From: a virus
DNA length: 31,444 bases
IMG/VR virus record: IMGVR_UViG_3300042914_001053
Span: 1 to 31,444 of that record
Direction: 5' to 3' (one strand)
Made by a program: the position numbers and the translations under genes. Positions 4,409-30,783 of this stretch are shown here, one piece after another (positions within the stretch are counted from its first letter, which is position 1; each line of letters opens with the position of its first letter). Below the pieces are notes generated by a model. It ran no database searches, was not told the origin of the DNA, and saw only the letters and a list, made by a program, of their open reading frames with translations.

Positions 4409-5380
4409 ATGAGCGATACTCAAGGAACGACACCGGAATCCGGTAGTCCAGAGTTAACTGTAGGTAGTGCAGCCGACGCTATCTTGGGTCTGATGGGTGC
4501 AGAAGAAGGCTCCGAACAGGAACAACCAGAACTGCAAGCAGAGGCCAACGATAGCGAAGCCGAATCTGATGAGTCTTATGATGAGTCAGAGGTAGAACAA
4601 GAAGATGAGCAGGATGAGCAAGAGGAGCCTCAGACGTTCCGGGTAAAAGCAGCCGGTGAAGAACGTGAGGTAACCCTTGATGAGCTTATCAAGTCTTATC
4701 AACTTGGCACAGACTATACAAAGAAATCGCAAGCCGTAGCTGAGGAACGTAAGGTAGTCGAGGCTGAACGACAGCGTATCGAAGAAGCCAGATACTTGCG
4801 GGATCAGTATGCGGAACGGTTGCAGATTATTGAGCAAATGCTCAATCAGCAGCCAGAAGGTGAAAACCTAGATGAACTGAAGGAAAGAGACCCCATTGGG
4901 TACGCTTTAGCATATACGGATCAACAAAGGCGGAAAGAGCAAATAGCTCAAGTTCAGGCTGAACGACAGCGAATTGCAGAGCAGCAACAGCAGGAACGTC
5001 AGGAGCAACTTGGTCAGGTAATACAGGCTGAGTCTCGTAAGCTGGCAGAGGCAATACCTGAATATGCTGATCCGCAAAAGGGTGAAGTAACTCGGCGAGA
5101 ACTAAGGGAGTTTGGCCTAAAGTTAGGGTTTTCAGACCAAGAGTTATCGGGAATCTATGATTCTCGGCAGGTTCTAACGCTATACAAGGCGATGCAATAC
5201 GACAAGTTGCAATCCTCTAAACCGGGGATTACGAAGCGTGTTAATGAGGCTCCGAAGGTTGTTAAGTCGGGTGTTTCTCAGCCTCGGGAAGGTAGCGATG
5301 AACTGAGGAAAGCAAAAGCGCGAGCAAAGCAGACCGGAAGGGTTGCTGATGCCGCAAAAGCATTTGAACGATTCTTATAG
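4409..5380 (+). CDS. Capsid scaffolding protein
   Basis: Guides assembly of the capsid protein into a prohead and is then removed. The 323-residue product has an extremely acidic segment at about 30-75 (Glu, Asp, Gln, Ser). It continues with a long Glu/Gln/Arg/Lys coiled coil at about 105-215 and a basic C-terminus (KAKARAKQTGR followed by FERFL), the end that normally contacts the coat protein. Its position directly before the major capsid gene fits. AGGA lies 8 nt before the ATG. The 41-nt gap upstream holds a TATAAT at 4389-4394 without a good -35 box, and a short CCCG-TTT-CGGG hairpin at 4368-4378. A separate promoter for scaffold and capsid is therefore possible but not shown. Confidence 0.88.
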   Translation: MSDTQGTTPESGSPELTVGSAADAILGLMGAEEGSEQEQPELQAEANDSEAESDESYDESEVEQEDEQDEQEEPQTFRVKAAGEEREVTLDELIKSYQLGTDYTKKSQAVAEERKVVEAERQRIEEARYLRDQYAERLQIIEQMLNQQPEGENLDELKERDPIGYALAYTDQQRRKEQIAQVQAERQRIAEQQQQERQEQLGQVIQAESRKLAEAIPEYADPQKGEVTRRELREFGLKLGFSDQELSGIYDSRQVLTLYKAMQYDKLQSSKPGITKRVNEAPKVVKSGVSQPREGSDELRKAKARAKQTGRVADAAKAFERFL

Positions 5381-5389
5381 GAAATTATC

Positions 5390-6334
5390 ATGCCTACATT
5401 TACAGCACACAGCGCGATTGGTCAGCGCGAAGATTTGACCGACATCATCTATGACATTTCTCCAACGGAAACGCCGTTTATGTCATCGATTGGCAAGACC
5501 AAAGCTACAGCCGTTTACCATGAATGGCAGACTGATAGCTTGGCTGCTGCTACTACTGCTAACGCAGCGATTGAAGGTGCAGACGCTACATCGGCAACTC
5601 TGGCTCCTACCGTTCGTCTTGGTAACTACACTCAGATCATCCAAAAGACCGTTCAGGTTTCGGGTACTCTGGACACAGTAAACAAGGCAGGTCGTAAGTC
5701 AGAAAAGGCTTACCAGTTGGCTAAAGCATCGGCTGAACTGAAGCGCGATCTGGAAACTATCCTGTGCGCTAACCAAGGTCGTTCGGCTGGTACATCGACG
5801 ATTGCTCGTAAGCTCGGTTCGATCCTGTCATGGATCAAGACTAACTCGGACGTAGGTTCGGGCGGTGCTGATCCTGCAACTATCGGCGTATCGACTCGTA
5901 CTGATGGCACACAGCGTACTTTCACCGAGACTCTGCTCAAGACTGTGGTGTCTGAGGTGTTTGTATCTGGTGGCTCACCTAAGATTCTGATGGTTGGTGC
6001 TGCTGGTAAGCAGAAGGTTAGCTCGTTTGCTGGTATCGCTGCACAGCGTTACATGGCTCCGGGTAACACTCCGACCACCATTATCGGTGCGGCTGACGTT
6101 TATATGTCTGACTTTGGCACGATGTCGGTTGTTCCTAACCGCTTCATGCGTACTCGTGATGCTCTGGTACTTGATCCAGAATACGCAGCACTAGCGTATC
6201 TGCGTCCGTTCCAGACTAACGATCTGGCTAAGACTGGTGACTCTGAGAATACTCAGTTGCTGGCTGAAGTCACTCTTGAAGTTAAGAACGAAGCTGCTCA
6301 TGGCGGAATCTTCGATCTGGACATGGCTCTATAA
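5390..6334 (+). CDS. Major capsid protein (SU10-like, HK97 fold)
   Basis: The shell-forming protein. The 314-residue sequence begins with HSAIGQREDLTDIIYDISPTETPF, the signature opening of the SU10-type capsid family (Pfam DUF5309). It continues with GNYTQIIQKTVQVSGTLD, an N-arm/E-loop-like segment, and ends with LLAEVTLEVKNEAAHGGI. Both are typical of this family. No separate maturation protease is visible nearby. An AGGAAA ribosome site overlaps the scaffold stop codon, 9 nt upstream of the start. Use of preferred codons is strong compared with neighbours (many CGT, GGT, CTG, GCT), as expected for the most abundant virion protein. A strong hairpin follows 25 nt after the stop. Confidence 0.95.
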   Translation: MPTFTAHSAIGQREDLTDIIYDISPTETPFMSSIGKTKATAVYHEWQTDSLAAATTANAAIEGADATSATLAPTVRLGNYTQIIQKTVQVSGTLDTVNKAGRKSEKAYQLAKASAELKRDLETILCANQGRSAGTSTIARKLGSILSWIKTNSDVGSGGADPATIGVSTRTDGTQRTFTETLLKTVVSEVFVSGGSPKILMVGAAGKQKVSSFAGIAAQRYMAPGNTPTTIIGAADVYMSDFGTMSVVPNRFMRTRDALVLDPEYAALAYLRPFQTNDLAKTGDSENTQLLAEVTLEVKNEAAHGGIFDLDMAL

Positions 6335-6358
6335 CGGATGTTTGTATAAGTAGCAAAT

Positions 6359-6382
6359 CCTCCTAGCCTACGGGCTAGGGGG
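6359..6382 (+). terminator. Strong UACG-loop hairpin after the capsid gene
   Basis: A 10-bp stem CCTCCTAGCC / GGCTAGGGGG with one G-U pair closes on the tetraloop TACG, an exceptionally stable UNCG loop. It lies in the only sizeable gap of the head module, 25 nt after the capsid stop. There is no run of T after the stem, so it is not a classical intrinsic terminator. It may act as a partial terminator or as a 3' stabiliser or processing site that keeps capsid mRNA more abundant than downstream mRNA. Confidence 0.6.
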
Positions 6383-6398
6383 AACTACGAAAGGATTT

Positions 6399-6701
6399 AT
6401 GAGTACTCCGATACGGACTCAAACAGCATACGAGGATGGTGACGGTGGTATCGTCATCGAGACTAAACAGGACGTTACCGAGATCATTGAGGCTAACAAG
6501 GCTCAGTTAGATTTCGATAAACAGAGGTCAGGCGGTCTAAACGATTTGCACCATGTAGCCAGAATTCCTTTTACGGTTATAGATGTACTTAACCAGATGG
6601 GGATTATGAAGGGCTTTAACGTGGTGGATGACGTTGGGTTTGCTAAGTGGCTGAACGATCCTGATAATGCTGTTTGGAAAACGTATCGAGGAACTATATG
6701 A
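6399..6701 (+). CDS. Conserved phage protein of unknown function
   Basis: A 100-residue protein with an acidic, Gly-rich N-terminus (YEDGDGGIVIETKQD) followed by a helical part (LHHVARIPFTVIDVLNQMGIM) and a mixed C-terminus. AAAGGA lies 5 nt before the ATG, just after the capsid hairpin, so this is the first gene of the next transcript segment. The stop codon overlaps the next gene as ATGA. No catalytic motif, membrane segment or signal peptide is visible. Its place between capsid and adaptor genes suggests a head-related or accessory role, but I cannot say more. Confidence 0.75.
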   Translation: MSTPIRTQTAYEDGDGGIVIETKQDVTEIIEANKAQLDFDKQRSGGLNDLHHVARIPFTVIDVLNQMGIMKGFNVVDDVGFAKWLNDPDNAVWKTYRGTI

Positions 6702-7351
6702 GAGTTGGTGTTTGCGTACCATGTAGGGATGAGGTTCACACAGGTTTTGCTTTTGATTTTGCTCGGATGGCGGCTCATGATGCGTCAGTTCGTTGTAAAG
6801 ATGGCAAAGGCGGTTTGAGCCTATATACAATGCCGGGAACGCTGATATTTGACCAGCGTGAGAAGTTGGCAGAAGTAGCGTTTAAAGAAGGTTGCGACGC
6901 AGTATTGTTTATTGATAGCGATATGCGGTTCCCTCACGATATTATTAGCATCATGCTAAGTCGTGAAGTGCCGATAGTTGGTGTCAATGCAACGACTAGA
7001 CGTAAGCCAGTAACACCGACTGCGAAGATGTTGCGTAAGTACATGGATGGGGAGACTCTCGTTCATGAATGGTCGAACATTGATTCTCGCGGGAAAGAAG
7101 GTATCGAGGAAGTTACAGCGGTAGGGTTTGGTGCTGTGATGATTCGTAGAGAGGTGTTTGAAAAGACTGGCAGACCTTGGTTTGACGCTGGATGGGGTTC
7201 TAGTGGTGTTTGTGGTGAGGATGTGTATTTCTGCGTTAAAGCCGGTTCTGAGGGCTTCCAGACGTATGTAGACCATGAGTTATCGATGCACATCCGGCAC
7301 ATTGGCACTTACGAATATGGCTGGAAAGATTTCGAGCAATTAGAGGAATGA
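6698..7351 (+). CDS. GT-A type glycosyltransferase (family 2-like)
   Basis: A 217-residue protein starting MRVGVCVPCRDEVH, like the first beta strand and nucleotide-sugar loop of GT-A enzymes. The metal-binding DxD motif is clear in VLFIDSDMRFP (D73-S-D75). A later acidic motif GED at 173-175 followed by a conserved His (MHIRHIG, near 198-201) is where family-2-like enzymes carry the catalytic acid and last metal ligand. The acceptor is unknown: capsid or tail protein, modified DNA bases, or host surface sugar are all possible. The start at 6698 uses an ATGA overlap with the preceding gene and a GAGGAA site 4 nt upstream; an ATG at 6674 in the same frame is less likely. Its position inside the head module favours a virion target, which is inference. 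Confidence 0.85.
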   Translation: MRVGVCVPCRDEVHTGFAFDFARMAAHDASVRCKDGKGGLSLYTMPGTLIFDQREKLAEVAFKEGCDAVLFIDSDMRFPHDIISIMLSREVPIVGVNATTRRKPVTPTAKMLRKYMDGETLVHEWSNIDSRGKEGIEEVTAVGFGAVMIRREVFEKTGRPWFDAGWGSSGVCGEDVYFCVKAGSEGFQTYVDHELSMHIRHIGTYEYGWKDFEQLEE

Positions 7352-23972: not shown

Positions 23973-24163
23973 AGTTTCCTCTGGCAACTAAATGCCTGAA
24001 TATCTACTCGAAAAGCGTTAGCAAACTTACAATCTGACGCTATCCGTATCTCGGTCTGGATTGCTCCTACGTTATAACCAATTACGGCTAAAACAATAGC
24101 GACCATAGACTTAGCCCACCATGTATTGACCATAGCTATAACCTTCTGGAGTTCTTCAAGCAT
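23969..24163 (-). CDS. Small single-pass membrane protein
   Basis: From ATG 24163 the product is 64 residues: a helical start (MLEELQKVIAMVNTWW), one membrane segment (SMVAIVLAVIGYNVGAI) and a polar tail with two cysteines (ASDCKFANAF, FSCQRKL). An ATG at 24187 in the same frame would give 72 residues; AGGAG lies between the two starts, 12 nt before the second. It overlaps the MazG-like gene upstream and the next gene downstream, as expected for a coupled early operon. Function unknown; a phage membrane-associated early protein is likely. Confidence 0.6.
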   Translation of the reverse strand: MLEELQKVIAMVNTWWAKSMVAIVLAVIGYNVGAIQTEIRIASDCKFANAFRVDIQAFSCQRKL

Positions 24164-24461
24164 CTTTGACGAATACTCCTGTGGCATTGAGATAGCCCTT
24201 TCTATCTTTAATCTGTTCGTAAGCTGACAGGAAACATTGTTTTAGATCGACATCTTCAATAGCAGCAACCATAGTGAGGCATACAAGAATATCCCCAAGT
24301 CCATCGATAACTGCGTCACGGTCTCGTTTGGTAATCGCATCTGCTAGTTCCCCCATTTCGCTAAAAGCCTTGAGTAACTGCGTCTTGCTATCTGAGTTCT
24401 GGATAATGCCTCTGGCTTCACCCCAACGGACTACCAGTAGTTCAGTCTGTTCGTAGCTCAT
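24156..24461 (-). CDS. MazG-like nucleotide pyrophosphohydrolase
   Basis: A 101-residue all-helical protein of the NTP-PPase superfamily that hydrolyses nucleoside triphosphates. The metal-binding motif appears as FSEMGELADAI (E35 and E38) followed by RDAVIDGLGDILVCLTM (D53 and D57), and the C-terminus YEQIKDRKGYLNATGVFVKDA is typical of phage members. In phages these proteins are thought to adjust the nucleotide pool or ppGpp-type signals. It is coupled to the XRE gene by an ATGA overlap (24458-24461). Confidence 0.85.
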   Translation of the reverse strand: MSYEQTELLVVRWGEARGIIQNSDSKTQLLKAFSEMGELADAITKRDRDAVIDGLGDILVCLTMVAAIEDVDLKQCFLSAYEQIKDRKGYLNATGVFVKDA

Positions 24462-25109: not shown

Positions 25110-25775
25110 TTATCCTTGAGCAAATTTCTTGATTGCACTACGCTGTTTACTATCTAACTGGCTCCAGAGTGCTGTTTTCCAGTCAGCATCTAGCTCCAGA
25201 CTATTGATGTACTCGACTGCTTCTCCGACCCTATCCTTATGAATCATCATGATGATGTCGGCTGCATAGCTTTTAATCTCGTTCTGAGATTGCTGGTCTA
25301 ACGTATCGAATACCGACTTAGTGATCGGCTTTGCAGACTTAGGCTCGTCAGCACCAGTCGTAGCGTCTAAGGCATCATGTTCACAGATAGCCAGAGCCAT
25401 GACCAACAGGTAGCGAGTGATATACGTTATCGAGGCTCCGAGGTTCTGGACTGGATGACAGCCTTTAAGTTCAGCATTAGCCATAGGGCAAGTAAACTTT
25501 GCATGACCACCGTTTTCTGTATCAATGACGTACATAGTAGCCATAGTGTCTGAGAACTCTAGCGTATGTGCCAAGCCTAGCTCAAAGAAAATGCTATTAA
25601 CGGTAGGCAGGAAGTCTGATAGCTCGAAATACTTATAGCCAGCAAATTTATTGTGACCGGACTTCTCTAACTTTACGCCTTGTAACTTGACTCTGGCTGT
25701 CTGTAGCTTCTGGTAAACGATCCATTGCTGATGTTCGTCTTGTTCCTGCTGTCTGTTATCTAGTTGGTTATCCAT
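25110..25775 (-). CDS. erf: ERF-family single-strand annealing recombinase
   Basis: Anneals complementary single strands for phage recombination and genome circularisation or repair. The 221-residue protein has the ERF core: VKLQGVKLEKSGHNKFAGYKYFELSDFLPTVNSIFFELGL at about residues 29-68, then HPVQNLGASITYITRYLLVMALAI near 106-129, which carries the family's G-A-x-x-T-Y-x-x-R-Y motif. The helical C-terminal third is not conserved. AAGGGAT precedes the ATG. It is followed by an SSB-like protein. No exonuclease partner is seen nearby, as is often the case with ERF. Confidence 0.9.
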   Translation of the reverse strand: MDNQLDNRQQEQDEHQQWIVYQKLQTARVKLQGVKLEKSGHNKFAGYKYFELSDFLPTVNSIFFELGLAHTLEFSDTMATMYVIDTENGGHAKFTCPMANAELKGCHPVQNLGASITYITRYLLVMALAICEHDALDATTGADEPKSAKPITKSVFDTLDQQSQNEIKSYAADIIMMIHKDRVGEAVEYINSLELDADWKTALWSQLDSKQRSAIKKFAQG

Positions 25776-27000: not shown

Positions 27001-27180
27001 ATGGCTAGGGAGTGCAACCCGAAAAGACGATTCGTTACCGTCCTGCCTGACCCACCTATTTCAGTAACGACAGCCAATAACGTGAGGCTTATATGCGACT
27101 CATACCCAAAAACTGGAGAGCCTTCCAGCATTACGGCAATCGCCGACCACCTTGGATCAAACTGCATCGTGAACTCCTAG
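27001..27180 (+). CDS. Possible small overlapping protein
   Basis: An ATG-started frame of 59 residues: a basic, Pro-rich start (MARECNPKRRFVTVLPDPP), then TTANNVRLICDSYPKTG and the end ADHLGSNCIVNS. AGGGA lies directly before the ATG, too close for an ideal ribosome site. It overlaps the replication protein gene by 88 nt in another frame. The first 90 nt fill an otherwise gene-free gap, which favours it slightly, but I cannot exclude chance. Confidence 0.3.
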   Translation: MARECNPKRRFVTVLPDPPISVTTANNVRLICDSYPKTGEPSSITAIADHLGSNCIVNS

Positions 27181-27710
27181 ACGATAGGGAATTCATGAGC
27201 TTGCCTATGGCTAGCAAAGCTATGGCTCCCCTACTCTGGTTGCTTGCTTCTGAATCCGAAGATGCTAGTTTTGACGCTGCTATCGATGAGCTAGCGTTCC
27301 GCTTGCGTCTTGCTAGCAAAGAAGTTGAGGAAGGACTTAAACCTTTGATAGATAAAGGATTCTTCCTTGATGCTAGCACCATGCTAGCAGCTTGCTTGCA
27401 ACTCGCTAGCCCAGATAAAGAGACAGAGACAGAGAAAGAGAAAGAGAAGAGGCAAAAGGTTGAAATTCCTGACTTCATTCCTTTGCAAGATTGGAACGAT
27501 TTTGTTGAAATGAGGAAACATACTAAGAGATCAATGACAGAACGAGCTATGAAGATAATGTTTAATAAATTACAACAAATGAAAACTAAGGGATTTGATA
27601 TTTCTGAGGTGTTGCAAAAAAGCATTGCCAATAATTGGTCTGACGTTTACGAGCCTAAAGATAAAAAACCTAGTGAGTCAACCTTTCCTTTCGGAAGGAG
27701 AATCCTATGA
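27093..27710 (+). CDS. Replication initiation / helicase loader-like protein
   Basis: A 205-residue protein with a winged-helix-type N-terminal part of the phage O/DnaD kind (RRPPWIKLHRELLDDREFMSLPM, then KAMAPLLWLLASESED and IDELAFRLRLASKEVEEGLKPLIDKGFFL). A charged linker follows (KETETEKEKEKR), and the C-terminal part DWNDFVEMRKHTKRSMTERAMKIMFNKLQQM is like the helicase-recruiting end of phage replisome organisers. GAGG precedes the ATG. It sits directly before the primase, QueD, DpdA and helicase genes, matching a role in origin recognition or helicase loading. The origin may lie in this gene or just upstream. Confidence 0.75.
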   Translation: MRLIPKNWRAFQHYGNRRPPWIKLHRELLDDREFMSLPMASKAMAPLLWLLASESEDASFDAAIDELAFRLRLASKEVEEGLKPLIDKGFFLDASTMLAACLQLASPDKETETEKEKEKRQKVEIPDFIPLQDWNDFVEMRKHTKRSMTERAMKIMFNKLQQMKTKGFDISEVLQKSIANNWSDVYEPKDKKPSESTFPFGRRIL

Positions 27711-28123
27711 TTGGCGATTTCCTAAACCGGCTTGAGAAGGTTCAGGGCAAGCGAGGGCATTGGATAGCCTGTTGTCCAGCGCATCAAGACAAACGTCCAT
27801 CACTTGCCATAACGGAAACTGACGATGGCAGGATTTTGCTGAAGTGCTTTGCTGGTTGCTCGGCTTACGAAGTGGTTTCAGCCGTAGGTATGGATTTGAC
27901 TGATCTGTTTCCTAAAGATCAATCTTTTATGCCTAGCGAAACCAGTAAACCTGTCCGCAGACCGTTCTATGCCACAGACCTAATGAAAATAATCCATTTT
28001 GAGGCACTTATTACGGGCATAGCGGCGTTTGATATGGCTGAGGGTAGGCAGGTATCAGACACCGATAAAAAACGGCTTAAAACGGCTTTTACGCGAATTA
28101 ACGAAGCCGTTAGCTATTTATAA
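27707..28123 (+). CDS. Primase zinc-finger protein (CHC2-like, no TOPRIM)
   Basis: A 138-residue protein with the primase zinc motif: CCPAHQDKRPSLAITE (C22/C23 and H26), then GRILLKCFAGCSAYEVV (C47 and C51). This is the P4-alpha/DnaG type zinc finger that recognises template sequence. There is no TOPRIM catalytic domain, so it cannot prime alone; it must work with another primase subunit or help the helicase. The start overlaps the preceding gene as ATGA. It is located 5' of QueD and DpdA, with a 10-nt gap. Confidence 0.83.
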   Translation: MIGDFLNRLEKVQGKRGHWIACCPAHQDKRPSLAITETDDGRILLKCFAGCSAYEVVSAVGMDLTDLFPKDQSFMPSETSKPVRRPFYATDLMKIIHFEALITGIAAFDMAEGRQVSDTDKKRLKTAFTRINEAVSYL

Positions 28124-28133
28124 AGATTGCGCT

Positions 28134-28535
28134 ATGGAAATCTCTCAAACATTCACATTTGAAGCCGCACATACGTTAGCGAGACTTGTGCCGTTAGTCG
28201 AGTATGAGCCAAGCATGAGAATTCATGGTCATTCTTACGTTGCTACGGTTGCGGTAAAGGGCAAGATTGGTGACAACGGGATGGTGCAATTTTTTAGGTT
28301 GCCAAAGAACAAACGTAGCACGGTTGATTTGTACTATTTACGCAAAGAAATAGCAGACGTTAGAGAAAAGCTAGACCATCGATTCCTGAACGAAGTTGAG
28401 GGTTTGCCTTACCAGACGCTAGAGGCTTTATGTGTTTTTATTTACGACCATATCAAAAAGGAGTTTCCTGTTGCTTGGGTGAAAGTCGAGCGTCCGTTAA
28501 GTGGTGATGCCTGTCGTTATGATGGTGACGCATGA
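28134..28535 (+). CDS. queD: QueD-like 6-carboxytetrahydropterin synthase homologue
   Basis: A 133-residue member of the PTPS/QueD family, which in canonical form makes the carboxytetrahydropterin precursor of 7-deazaguanine. Zinc ligands H13 (FEAAH), H31 and H33 (HGHSY) are present, as are the D81-H82 pair (KLDHRFLNE) and E119 near the end. In place of the catalytic Cys of E. coli QueD (C27, in CxxxHGH) there is S27 (SMRIHGH). About 14 extra residues follow GMV (QFFRLPKNKRSTVD). The ATG at 28134 is chosen over an upstream in-frame start at 28029 because only it matches the family N-terminus and avoids overlapping the primase. The stop overlaps the DpdA gene as ATGA, so the two are translated together. 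Confidence 0.8.
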   Translation: MEISQTFTFEAAHTLARLVPLVEYEPSMRIHGHSYVATVAVKGKIGDNGMVQFFRLPKNKRSTVDLYYLRKEIADVREKLDHRFLNEVEGLPYQTLEALCVFIYDHIKKEFPVAWVKVERPLSGDACRYDGDA

Positions 28536-29272
28536 TTCATTATCACGGTCTGCCAATAACTCCGGCTACAGCTGCTCTTAGGGCTATCAGCGGTGGTCAT
28601 GCTTTTATTTCTTTCCGACATTCGGATCAACTAACGATAGCTTTGGATGCAGCTCAGTCATTTGCTGTGGATAACGGAGCCTTTAGCGCATGGAAATCTG
28701 GTAATCCAGTAGAGGATTGGACTCCATTTTATGAGTGGGTTGATAAGTTACGTCGGTTTCCAGCGTTTGATTTTGCGGTTATCCCTGACGTTATAGATGG
28801 GGATGAGCAAGCCAATGACGAGTTGCTAGATGAGTTTCCGTTCCCGGCTTATGTAGGCGCACCAGTCTGGCATTTACATGAAAGTCTTGACCGGCTAGAT
28901 CGACTGGCTACGAACTATCCGAGGCTTTGCTTAGGTTCCTCTGGTGATTTTGCCAATATCGGAACTCCTGCTTGGTGGAATCGGATGTCTCAGGCTATGG
29001 ATGTTTTATGCGATCAGGAAGGGTTGCCAAAGACCAAGATTCACGGTTTACGGATGCTGAATCCTGATGTATTTACTAGGTTCCCATTTGCGTCTGCTGA
29101 TAGTACGAATATCGGTCAAAACGTGGGTATTGATAGCGCATGGCGAGGAACTTATACGCCACCTACGAAAGAGGCTAGAGCTGCTCTTATGAGAGAGCGT
29201 ATTGAGTCGCACCAAAGTCCGCAGGTGTGGAATAGAGAGATAGCACCAATTCAGGAAAACTTATTTAATTAA
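28532..29272 (+). CDS. dpdA: DpdA-like DNA 7-deazaguanine transglycosylase
   Basis: A 246-residue protein of the TGT-like DpdA family, which swaps guanine in DNA for a 7-deazaguanine base such as preQ0. Family landmarks are in order: ISFRHSDQLTIALDAAQSFAVDNGAFSAWKSG with D47 in DNGAF at the place of the TGT catalytic Asp, FAVIPDVIDGD at 82-91, PVWHLHES at 111-118, GSSGDFANIG at 135-144, HGLRMLNPD at 171-179, and ASADST at 187-192 where the second TGT Asp sits. It starts in an ATGA overlap with QueD. FolE, QueE and QueC are not in the window, so the substrate may come from the host or from genes outside. Related stand-alone DpdAs occur in other phages with modified DNA. Confidence 0.75.
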   Translation: MIHYHGLPITPATAALRAISGGHAFISFRHSDQLTIALDAAQSFAVDNGAFSAWKSGNPVEDWTPFYEWVDKLRRFPAFDFAVIPDVIDGDEQANDELLDEFPFPAYVGAPVWHLHESLDRLDRLATNYPRLCLGSSGDFANIGTPAWWNRMSQAMDVLCDQEGLPKTKIHGLRMLNPDVFTRFPFASADSTNIGQNVGIDSAWRGTYTPPTKEARAALMRERIESHQSPQVWNREIAPIQENLFN

Positions 29273-29280
29273 AGGTAATG

Positions 29281-29451
29281 ATGACGGAATCAAAGTTAGT
29301 TGAGTTAGGCTTTAGCGAGGTAGTACCGGGGTTTTGGGTTGGTAGCGTTTTTTCACTTAACAGGCTTTACGAACTAGGGAGACAAGATGAGTCTGGAGCA
29401 GAGAGCAGCGGAGTTAGACGAAGCGAGACGGTTGAGGATAATCAAGTCTGA
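29281..29451 (+). CDS. Small phage protein overlapping helicase start
   Basis: A 56-residue protein (MTESKLVELGFSEVVPGFWVG then SVFSLNRLYELGRQDESG), sharing 65 nt with the helicase gene in another frame. AAAGG lies 5 nt before this ATG; the ATG at 29278 is too close to it. The first half has a well-formed protein character of the small, GF-rich phage type. Function unknown. It probably couples translation from DpdA into the helicase. Confidence 0.5.
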   Translation: MTESKLVELGFSEVVPGFWVGSVFSLNRLYELGRQDESGAESSGVRRSETVEDNQV

Positions 29452-30388
29452 CTCGATAGATGTAGAGAAGTATCTACATTCAAACGACGTAACGATAAAG
29501 GTTAAACAGGCTAGAGACTTCCTAGATTCGATTAAGGAAAGCTATCTAAACTCTTCTAAAGATACAAAAATCCTACTGCCTTGGACTAATACGCATAGCA
29601 GTTTTGCGTTTAGACCGGGAGAGGTTACGGTTTATGCTGGTTCTAACGGTGGTGGTAAGTCGCTGTTGACCGGACAAATCGCGCTGCACCTAGTGAAGCA
29701 GAAACAATGCGTTTGCATTGCCTCGTTCGAGATGAAGCCGCAAAAGACGCTAGAGAGGATGCTGCGACAGTTCTCAGGTGAGTATGTGGATGACCCGTTA
29801 GCGTCGGATCGTGAGGCTTACATTACTAAACTTCTAGGAAGATTAGAGAAGTATACGGCTGATTCCTTATATCTTTACGACCAGCAGGGTACGACTAGCC
29901 CTGACAAGGTTATTGCTATGGCGAGATATTGCGCTATGGAATTAGGTGTACAGCACATTTTTATTGATTCCTTGATGAAATGCGTCAAGAACGAGGATGA
30001 CTTTAACGGACAGAAGAACTTTATCGATGAGCTAACGGCATTGGCTAGAGATCATAACGTCCATGTTCACCTAGTCCACCATATCCGCAAGCAAGCCTCA
30101 GACGAGGTAACACCGAATAAGAATGACCTGAAAGGCTCTGGTTCTATTAGCGATCAGGTGGACAACGTCTTTCTTGTGTGGCGCAACAAGAAGAAAGAAA
30201 ACCAGCGAAATCGTGGTGAGCAGATAGATGAGAGTCAGGGCGATACGTTCTTAATGAACGAGAAGCAGCGTAACGGAGAGGCTCAGGAGTGGTATCAACT
30301 CTGGTATCACACAGCAAGCCAGCAGTTTGTGGAATCGGCAGGATCAAGACCAATGGACTTTGACAACAATGGACGTTTTAGAGACTGA
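29387..30388 (+). CDS. DnaB/gp4-type replicative helicase
   Basis: The 5'-3' helicase of the phage replisome. The 333-residue protein has Walker A AGSNGGGKS at 84-92, Walker B QHIFIDSLM at 189-197, HLVHH at 228-232 and the DnaB H4-like motif DLKGSGSISDQVDNVFLVWRN at 247-267. The N-terminal region is short (about 60 residues), so there is no fused primase domain; the primase zinc domain is separate at 27707. The C-terminus (GEAQEWYQLWYHTASQQF) is typical for phage RecA-fold helicases. It overlaps both the small gene before it and the next gene after. Confidence 0.88.
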   Translation: MSLEQRAAELDEARRLRIIKSDSIDVEKYLHSNDVTIKVKQARDFLDSIKESYLNSSKDTKILLPWTNTHSSFAFRPGEVTVYAGSNGGGKSLLTGQIALHLVKQKQCVCIASFEMKPQKTLERMLRQFSGEYVDDPLASDREAYITKLLGRLEKYTADSLYLYDQQGTTSPDKVIAMARYCAMELGVQHIFIDSLMKCVKNEDDFNGQKNFIDELTALARDHNVHVHLVHHIRKQASDEVTPNKNDLKGSGSISDQVDNVFLVWRNKKKENQRNRGEQIDESQGDTFLMNEKQRNGEAQEWYQLWYHTASQQFVESAGSRPMDFDNNGRFRD

Positions 30389-30578
30389 AAGACATCGATG
30401 TGAGGTTAGGCAGGTATTAGCTTGGAGAGCAGCGGACAGGGATTCAGCGTTGCGGTATTTGAGCGTTGTTAGGCAGAAACGTGGGCATGAAGTTGCTGAC
30501 CAGTTAGAGGCTGACTGTAAATCTCAATGGGGTTTAGGGAACCGTGGCAAGAAAGGGGATTGGCGTGAAATGTCCTGA
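30369..30578 (+). CDS. Small conserved phage protein, DUF-type
   Basis: A 69-residue product starting MDVLETERHRCEVRQVLAWR with the core DSALRYLSVVRQKRGHEVADQLEADCKSQWGLGNRGKKGDWRE. The ending GNRG-x-x-GDWR recurs in small phage proteins found beside replication genes. It starts within the end of the helicase gene and overlaps the zinc-ribbon gene. A longer in-frame start at 30327 lies inside the helicase gene and is less likely. Its role is unknown. Confidence 0.7.
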   Translation: MDVLETERHRCEVRQVLAWRAADRDSALRYLSVVRQKRGHEVADQLEADCKSQWGLGNRGKKGDWREMS

Positions 30579-30783
30579 GTGCAAATTTAAAGCTACGGCG
30601 ATAGATACTCGCCATGTTCGGGATTATGTTAGGCGCAGGTTTTTTTGCCCAAGTTGTAATACAAGGTTTACTACTCATGAAAGAGTTATTGATACTGGCA
30701 GACAAGCGGGCGGAAGGCGTACACCTGAACACATGGCTGAGATGAGAAAACTAGCAAACCGATGGGGCAACAATGGTCTATAA
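30565..30783 (+). CDS. NrdR-like zinc ribbon protein
   Basis: A 72-residue protein with KCPECKFKATAIDTRHV, then VRRRFFCPSCNTRFTTHERV. These are the two CxxC knuckles and the RRRxxC-PxC-xxRFTTxER signature of the N-terminal zinc ribbon of the ribonucleotide reductase regulator NrdR. The ATP-cone domain of NrdR is absent. The GTG at 30565 is chosen because AAGGGG lies 7 nt upstream and the family begins M-x-C-P; an earlier GTG at 30544 in the same frame would add seven residues. It may bind DNA or act as a phage transcription factor. The stop overlaps the next gene. Confidence 0.8.
   Translation: MKCPECKFKATAIDTRHVRDYVRRRFFCPSCNTRFTTHERVIDTGRQAGGRRTPEHMAEMRKLANRWGNNGL

Follow-up and report, generated by a model that had tools for sequence, protein, structure and literature searches.

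The presence of a queD-family gene that overlaps a dpdA-family gene, among the replication genes of an uncultured phage, raises the question of whether one enzyme of the preQ0 pathway, coupled to a single transglycosylase, can amount to a DNA modification system. The pair lies in IMGVR_UViG_3300042914_001053, positions 1-31,444 (hereinafter the window, that is, the whole 31-kb stretch of DNA analysed). We consider it likely that the two genes together form a minimal module, dependent on the host, for the modification of DNA with a 7-deazaguanine.

The queD-dpdA locus

The features of the locus, in the order in which they occur, are the following:

27093..27710, + strand: O-like replication initiation protein (phrog_26426, E 2.8e-32; phrog_678, E 7.3e-20), upstream context
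27707..28123, + strand: short primase-like ORF (phrog_6088 DNA primase, E 4.2e-17, residues 3-76), upstream context
28134..28535, + strand: queD-family gene (6-carboxytetrahydropterin synthase), 133 aa; PF01242, E 1.2e-19; Ser-type motif SxxxHGH
28532..28535, + strand: ATGA stop/start overlap of queD and dpdA, read from the sequence; identical 4-base overlap in 24 loci
28532..29272, + strand: dpdA-family gene (DNA-guanine transglycosylase), 246 aa; phrog_887, E 2.7e-69; stand-alone small type
29278-29451: 57-aa ORF between dpdA and the helicase gene
29387..30388, + strand: DnaB-like replicative helicase (phrog_239, E 7e-57; phrog_19, E 1.4e-31), matching DnaB/primase-helicase families, downstream context

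Both ORFs of the pair and their ATGA overlap are where the original prediction had put them. Its placement of the pair between primase and helicase genes holds insofar as the pair is flanked by both, with the qualifications that the primase-like ORF is short, its similarity to phage primases being confined to their N-terminal ~75 residues, that is, to the N-terminal primase domain alone, and that the 57-aa ORF comes before the helicase. The record is of the linear class, has no end repeats, and is cut through ORFs at both ends, starting inside a terminase gene and ending inside an ORF; it is probably a fragment. Its nucleotide similarity to phages is limited to short patches. In line with the original prediction, no further gene of preQ0 supply was detected in the window: searches of these 31 kb gave neither FolE nor QueC, and local profiles gave neither QueE nor Vut_1. 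For phage QueE, the general radical SAM model performs weakly, the QueE of locus L206 having scored below its cut-off.

Elsewhere in the window, a 79-aa ORF with paired CPxC motifs (30544-30783) resembles an NrdR-type zinc ribbon, and a similar small CPRC-motif ORF is located downstream of dpdA in loci L239, L242, L245, and L247. A MazG-like pyrophosphatase (24156-24461, - strand) and an Erf-like annealing protein (25110-25775, - strand) are encoded divergently from the replication genes.

At most one supply gene per DpdA

In the preQ0 pathway, FolE produces dihydroneopterin triphosphate, QueD yields 6-carboxytetrahydropterin, QueE yields 7-carboxy-7-deazaguanine, and QueC yields preQ0, for which YhhQ is the importer (PMC6884629; PMC11888242). 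The combination of a DpdA with a single member of this set is not peculiar to the window. The queD-dpdA order and the ATGA junction recur in 16 other contigs and, because this arrangement is shared and the non-synonymous divergence (pn) is low compared to the synonymous divergence (ps) in both genes, the pair is not a chance juxtaposition. The small DpdA itself is common: each query detected over 500 viral contig stretches that encode it, and it is present in 117 phage records, many of them from lambdoid or P22-like temperate phages in which dpdA has no further pathway gene as a neighbour.

We collected 251 dpdA loci, mainly from three queries (the window, BTP1-type, and L092-type), which formed 80 clusters at 90% identity; each query contributed its 80 best matches, so that the following cluster fractions are not population frequencies. 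A Vut_1/YhhQ-like gene is the partner in 30 of the 80 DpdA clusters, QueD in 7, and QueE in 1 (L206, where the protein matches TIGR04508 with E 5e-34), and 42 have no recognised supply gene. Thus, in related phages, QueD is replaced by a Vut_1/YhhQ-like transporter or by QueE; exactly one kind of supply gene is present in 38 of the 80 clusters, and two kinds occur together in none. All QueD, Vut_1, and QueE matches in the 251 loci directly adjoin dpdA on the same strand, typically with 4-base overlaps (24 QueD loci and 27 Vut_1 loci). The original prediction regarded a system with a single pathway enzyme as unusual; in fact, such systems are recurrent, and the one adjacent gene is most often that of a precursor-transporter-like protein. 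No complete pathway was detected in the contigs examined: QueC over the cut-off and radical SAM proteins were absent from the 49 larger dpdA contigs and FolE from 50 dpdA records, the contigs that lack FolE, QueE, and QueC beyond the named partners being themselves fragments. The suggestion that the phage takes precursors from its host fits both this absence and the recurrence of single-gene partners.

The precursor-transport role of the Vut_1-like partner is suggested by distant homology. Seven of the eight members tested score over the Pfam cut-off for Vut_1, and the eighth (L227) falls just below it (E 3.5e-5); for the transporter-like protein of L193, the nearest NCBIfam families are those of the queuosine precursor transporter and the preQ0/preQ1 transporter, with weak scores, and nothing in NCBIfam matched the transporter-like protein of phage LHE71. 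Among cultured phages, the Vut_1-DpdA pair is present in Pectobacterium phage PEAT2, Escherichia phages LHE71 and Opt-719, and Acinetobacter phage AB3P2. No QueD-DpdA pair came to light in cultured phages, among which only two records contain any relative of the window QueD. In phage mEp021 (L350, 2459-3726), the gene of a Vut_1-like membrane protein overlaps an annotated DNA cytosine methyltransferase gene rather than dpdA; the DpdA profile did not match this neighbour gene, which makes the locus an exception to the rule that Vut_1 lies beside dpdA. Automatic clustering also delineated a family of ~80-aa proteins (MNCYKHKFAVTCPNNGK...) whose genes immediately flank dpdA, on one side or the other, in 33 non-identical loci (L022, 5750-6001, with 32 further dpdA loci; L092, near 6530-6937, as well); this family may represent an additional component of the module.

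Origin and maintenance of the pair

A tree built from 91 QueD proteins places the nine phage sequences encoded upstream of dpdA, that of the window included, in one clade (98/87). Its sister group consists of 19 sequences from Aquabacterium and related bacteria, the 28 rows grouping together with support of 98/83. The sister group of the phage clade thus appears to be a Burkholderiales QueD, the exact sister being unsure given the short alignment and some long branches. This tree, the only basis for such an assignment, suggests a Burkholderiales host for the window phage. The QueD of L230, encoded downstream of dpdA, and that of L003 are placed elsewhere in the tree; by this sequence evidence, there were two or more separate acquisitions of a QueD gene beside dpdA, on its upstream side in the one clade and on its downstream side in L230. 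The independently acquired protein of L230 (5735-6097) carries ENIHGH, an instance of ExxHGH, in addition to the serine discussed below. The L003 locus (5364-7080; MT835580), from a human faecal phage scaffold, comprises a queE-queD-queC cluster in which queD is of the Ser type.

Both genes of the pair evolve under constraint. The pn values are 0.06-0.17 and the ps values 0.64-0.76, the non-synonymous divergence per site being ~0.1-0.2 of the synonymous one; in the comparison of the window with L006, pn and ps are 0.083 and 0.73 for QueD and 0.055 and 0.65 for DpdA, with synonymous changes near saturation. Such low non-synonymous divergence against near-saturated synonymous divergence implies that both genes have been maintained by strong purifying selection.

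These observations bear on the possibility that the DpdA is a relic or a diverged protein that makes no useful insertion, as might be the case for the singleton DpdA groups of Hutinet et al., with the supply genes being incidental cargo. The DpdA-only phage Orion indeed has no modification, and in phage 7-11 the modification amounts to ~0.02% of G (PMC6884629); a supply partner is missing, moreover, in 42 of the 80 clusters. Nevertheless, the strong purifying selection on both genes, the invariance of the DpdA catalytic-site residues in the alignment, the confinement of three supply-gene families to positions directly next to dpdA, mostly in overlapping frames, and the arrival of QueD on at least two occasions all argue for a working pair, and we consider a relic unlikely. 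Stand-alone DpdAs may be weak or diverged, as the cases of Orion and 7-11 illustrate.

A small DpdA with a TGT-type fold

The match of the window DpdA to phrog_887, a viral family annotated as 'queuine tRNA-ribosyltransferase', covers the first half of the 509-position profile. The protein is 26% identical to the DpdA of phage 9g (BLASTP, E 1e-10; hhalign probability 93.5%) and is nearer to that of Salmonella phage 7-11 (35% identity, E 2e-39), the closest relative that has been assayed experimentally. The alignment with the 9g protein retains D[NS]GAF, H114, KxHG, and [AC]DS, the corresponding window residues being DNGAF (D47), H114, H171, and D190 in SADS; H171 aligns with the conserved histidine H196 of 9g, to which DpdA2 has no equivalent (PMC6884629).

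The relationship to tRNA-guanine transglycosylases (TGT) proved elusive by sequence: the window DpdA matched no Pfam or NCBIfam family, nor any Pfam family at E 10, PF01702 (TGT) included; it had no meaningful match in PDB, either as a single sequence or as a profile, and an hhalign comparison with E. coli TGT was unsuccessful. The AF2 model (pLDDT 78.5, pTM 0.79) likewise recovered no Foldseek match at E <= 0.001, generic barrels being on top. However, when the 1000 best chains were re-aligned with VIA-align, all 50 listed rows were TGTs (Z 13.3-14.7 over 215-232 residues), the best being the archaeosine TGT 1j2b (Z 14.7, rmsd 3.3 over 219 residues). It is this structural re-alignment, together with the link to 9g, that resolves the kinship with TGT where the sequence-only routes failed. 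The original prediction of a DpdA-like transglycosylase with a TGT/DpdA fold is thereby borne out, and the small 246-aa protein is probably a DpdA, of the DpdA type rather than DpdA2, with a TGT-type fold and, by homology, a DNA-guanine transglycosylase.

The substrate cannot be read from fold or homology, and the model resembles tRNA TGTs throughout, which would be expected if the pair acted on tRNA, with QueD boosting host queuosine and a reduced tRNA-modifying TGT supporting phage translation. Bacterial tRNA TGTs possess a three-Cys zinc site; the window DpdA contains two cysteines only and, therefore, cannot carry this site. Queuosine boosting has been raised by Hutinet et al. for phages that have pathway genes but lack DpdA, whereas the homologous DpdA of 9g modified DNA and did not complement the E. 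coli delta-tgt mutant (PMC6884629). In phage 7-11, with its closest assayed DpdA, dADG was likewise present in DNA. A role in tRNA modification, therefore, appears quite improbable.

A Ser-type QueD that is probably active

The window QueD belongs to the PTPS family, and its best NCBIfam match is TIGR03367 (queuosine_QueD), with 58.9 bits against a cut-off of 89.25. Its predicted fold is that of PTPS, the best Foldseek match being E. coli QueD (3qna, E 5e-9), and the zinc histidines H13, H31, and H33 are invariant in the alignment. The signatures of PTPS-I and PTPS-III are CxxxHGH and ExxHGH, respectively (PMC5041015). In the window QueD and all aligned phage relatives, the former is changed to SxxxHGH, a substitution of the motif cysteine that the original prediction had missed and that became apparent in the alignment; the canonical PTPS-I motif is thus absent, and so is ExxHGH.

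The closest bacterial relatives of this protein, mostly from Burkholderiales, share the serine. An automatic count found it in 79 of the 80 closest loci, and in the single exception, L316, the pattern had matched an unrelated stretch, the sequence also showing SRRIHGH. Furthermore, queE is located nearby in 72 of these 80 loci, and among 25 genomes, all of which encode QueC and TGT, the Ser-type QueD is the sole PTPS in 11. Because the serine is common to nearly all 80 bacterial kin, queE is nearby, and 11 of the 25 genomes have no other PTPS, the Ser-type protein is probably active, a working QueD being the simplest reading. Accordingly, we place the window QueD in the PTPS family as a Ser-type protein, one that probably functions as QueD, and not as a canonical PTPS-I enzyme. 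The alternative that the loss of the motif cysteine signifies a dead enzyme was dropped after the survey of Burkholderiales, in view of the queE context and the sole-PTPS genomes. A C-terminal cysteine (C127, in SGDxC) was considered as a substitute for that of the motif and was rejected, given that the E. coli and P. aeruginosa proteins also have a cysteine at the aligned position. We know of no enzyme assay of a Ser-type QueD; the substitution marks a group of probable QueD enzymes without the textbook cysteine that deserves one.

It is very improbable that the PTPS gene encodes a folate-type (PTPS-III) or other pterin enzyme for nucleotide synthesis that is only coincidentally linked to dpdA: although the window protein lacks CxxxHGH and the L230 relative has the PTPS-III signature (PMC5041015), the window protein lacks that signature too, its bacterial kin are encoded beside queE and include the sole-PTPS cases in genomes with QueC and TGT, and every PTPS gene in the dpdA contigs adjoins dpdA.

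In a separate observation, in Pseudomonas argentinensis (L312, 2208-6360), a Ser-type QueD is encoded near QueC and near a ~440-aa ORF that weakly resembles TGT, a full-length TGT being located elsewhere, and genomes G053, G055, G062, G065, G066, and G068 show the same layout with a separate full-length TGT. This arrangement looks like a bacterial dpd-type operon.

A probable host-dependent modification module

Under the reading that we favor, a minimal module dependent on the host, the phage QueD would divert host dihydroneopterin triphosphate (H2NTP), a product of the host FolE that folate synthesis also uses, to the formation of 6-carboxytetrahydropterin. This would be the committed step of preQ0 synthesis, at the branch point away from folate. 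Host QueE and QueC would then complete preQ0, which may become the amide ADG, and the phage DpdA would swap guanines in phage DNA for the resulting 7-deazaguanine, the inserted base probably masking restriction sites. A phage with QueD only would increase the input into a pathway for which the host already provides the later enzymes, whereas a phage with the importer only would draw on external precursor. The original prediction of 7-deazaguanine modification is, in this respect, supported by the fold and homology of DpdA and by the recurrent partners, the modified base itself being one that we infer. By analogy with 7-11 and Orion, the level of modification in phages with this pair could be low. 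Several findings weigh against the module: the motif cysteine of QueD is a serine and the protein scores below the NCBIfam equivalog cut-off, DpdA has no sequence-level match to PF01702, 42 of the 80 DpdA clusters lack a recognised supply gene, and the record is probably a fragment.

A broader and more tentative proposition, to which we give somewhat less than even chances, is that small-DpdA phages carry, instead of the whole pathway, one exchangeable supply gene (for an importer, QueD, or QueE) matched to the limiting step of the host. If so, the choice of the supply gene would mark the metabolic bottleneck of the host.

In the main survey of Hutinet et al., DpdA-only phages are the largest group, their modification status having been left open, and YhhQ was noted in some phages with no correlation with any phage group (PMC6884629). 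The apparently new element here is the phage version of the association, in which dpdA is accompanied by a single gene drawn from three interchangeable partners. From the tight pairing of DpdA with one supply gene, it is predicted that such phages do modify their DNA, with precursors obtained from the host; LHE71 and Opt-719, two culturable phages of E. coli, lend themselves to direct measurement of the modification. Later work by Cui et al. 2023 reportedly addresses DpdA subfamilies, DpdA3 and DpdA4, and may already describe part of the one-supply-gene pattern.

Comparison with known systems

The bacterial dpd islands resemble the window pair in the combination of a TGT-like DpdA with a QueD nearby; QueD is present in 78% of the islands and YhhQ in about 9% (PMC11888242). 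They also include dpdB/dpdC and, in many cases, a restriction operon; no such genes were recognised beside the window pair.

Among phages, the clusters of the 9g type (preQ0/G+; DpdA, FolE, QueD, Gat-QueC, and QueE; Queuovirinae) and the preQ0 clusters of the CAjan type share with the window a homologous DpdA with the same aligned motifs and a QueD near replication genes. The DpdA of 9g acts on DNA, inserting dG+ (PMC6884629). It is 317 aa long, compared to 246 aa in the window, and 9g encodes the whole pathway, whereas here there is one pathway gene in a 31-kb fragment. The DpdA-only phages, the third group of Hutinet et al., exemplified by Salmonella phage 7-11 with its 35% identical DpdA, have no other pathway genes; unlike in the window pair, no supply gene is recognised beside the 7-11 dpdA, and the DNA of this phage contains only 50 dADG per million nt, that is, ~0.02% of G (PMC6884629). 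The same DpdA family beside a single preQ0-supply-type gene is found in the Vut_1/YhhQ-DpdA phages (PEAT2, LHE71, Opt-719, and AB3P2), where the partner is a membrane protein resembling a precursor transporter, whereas in the window it is a synthesis enzyme.
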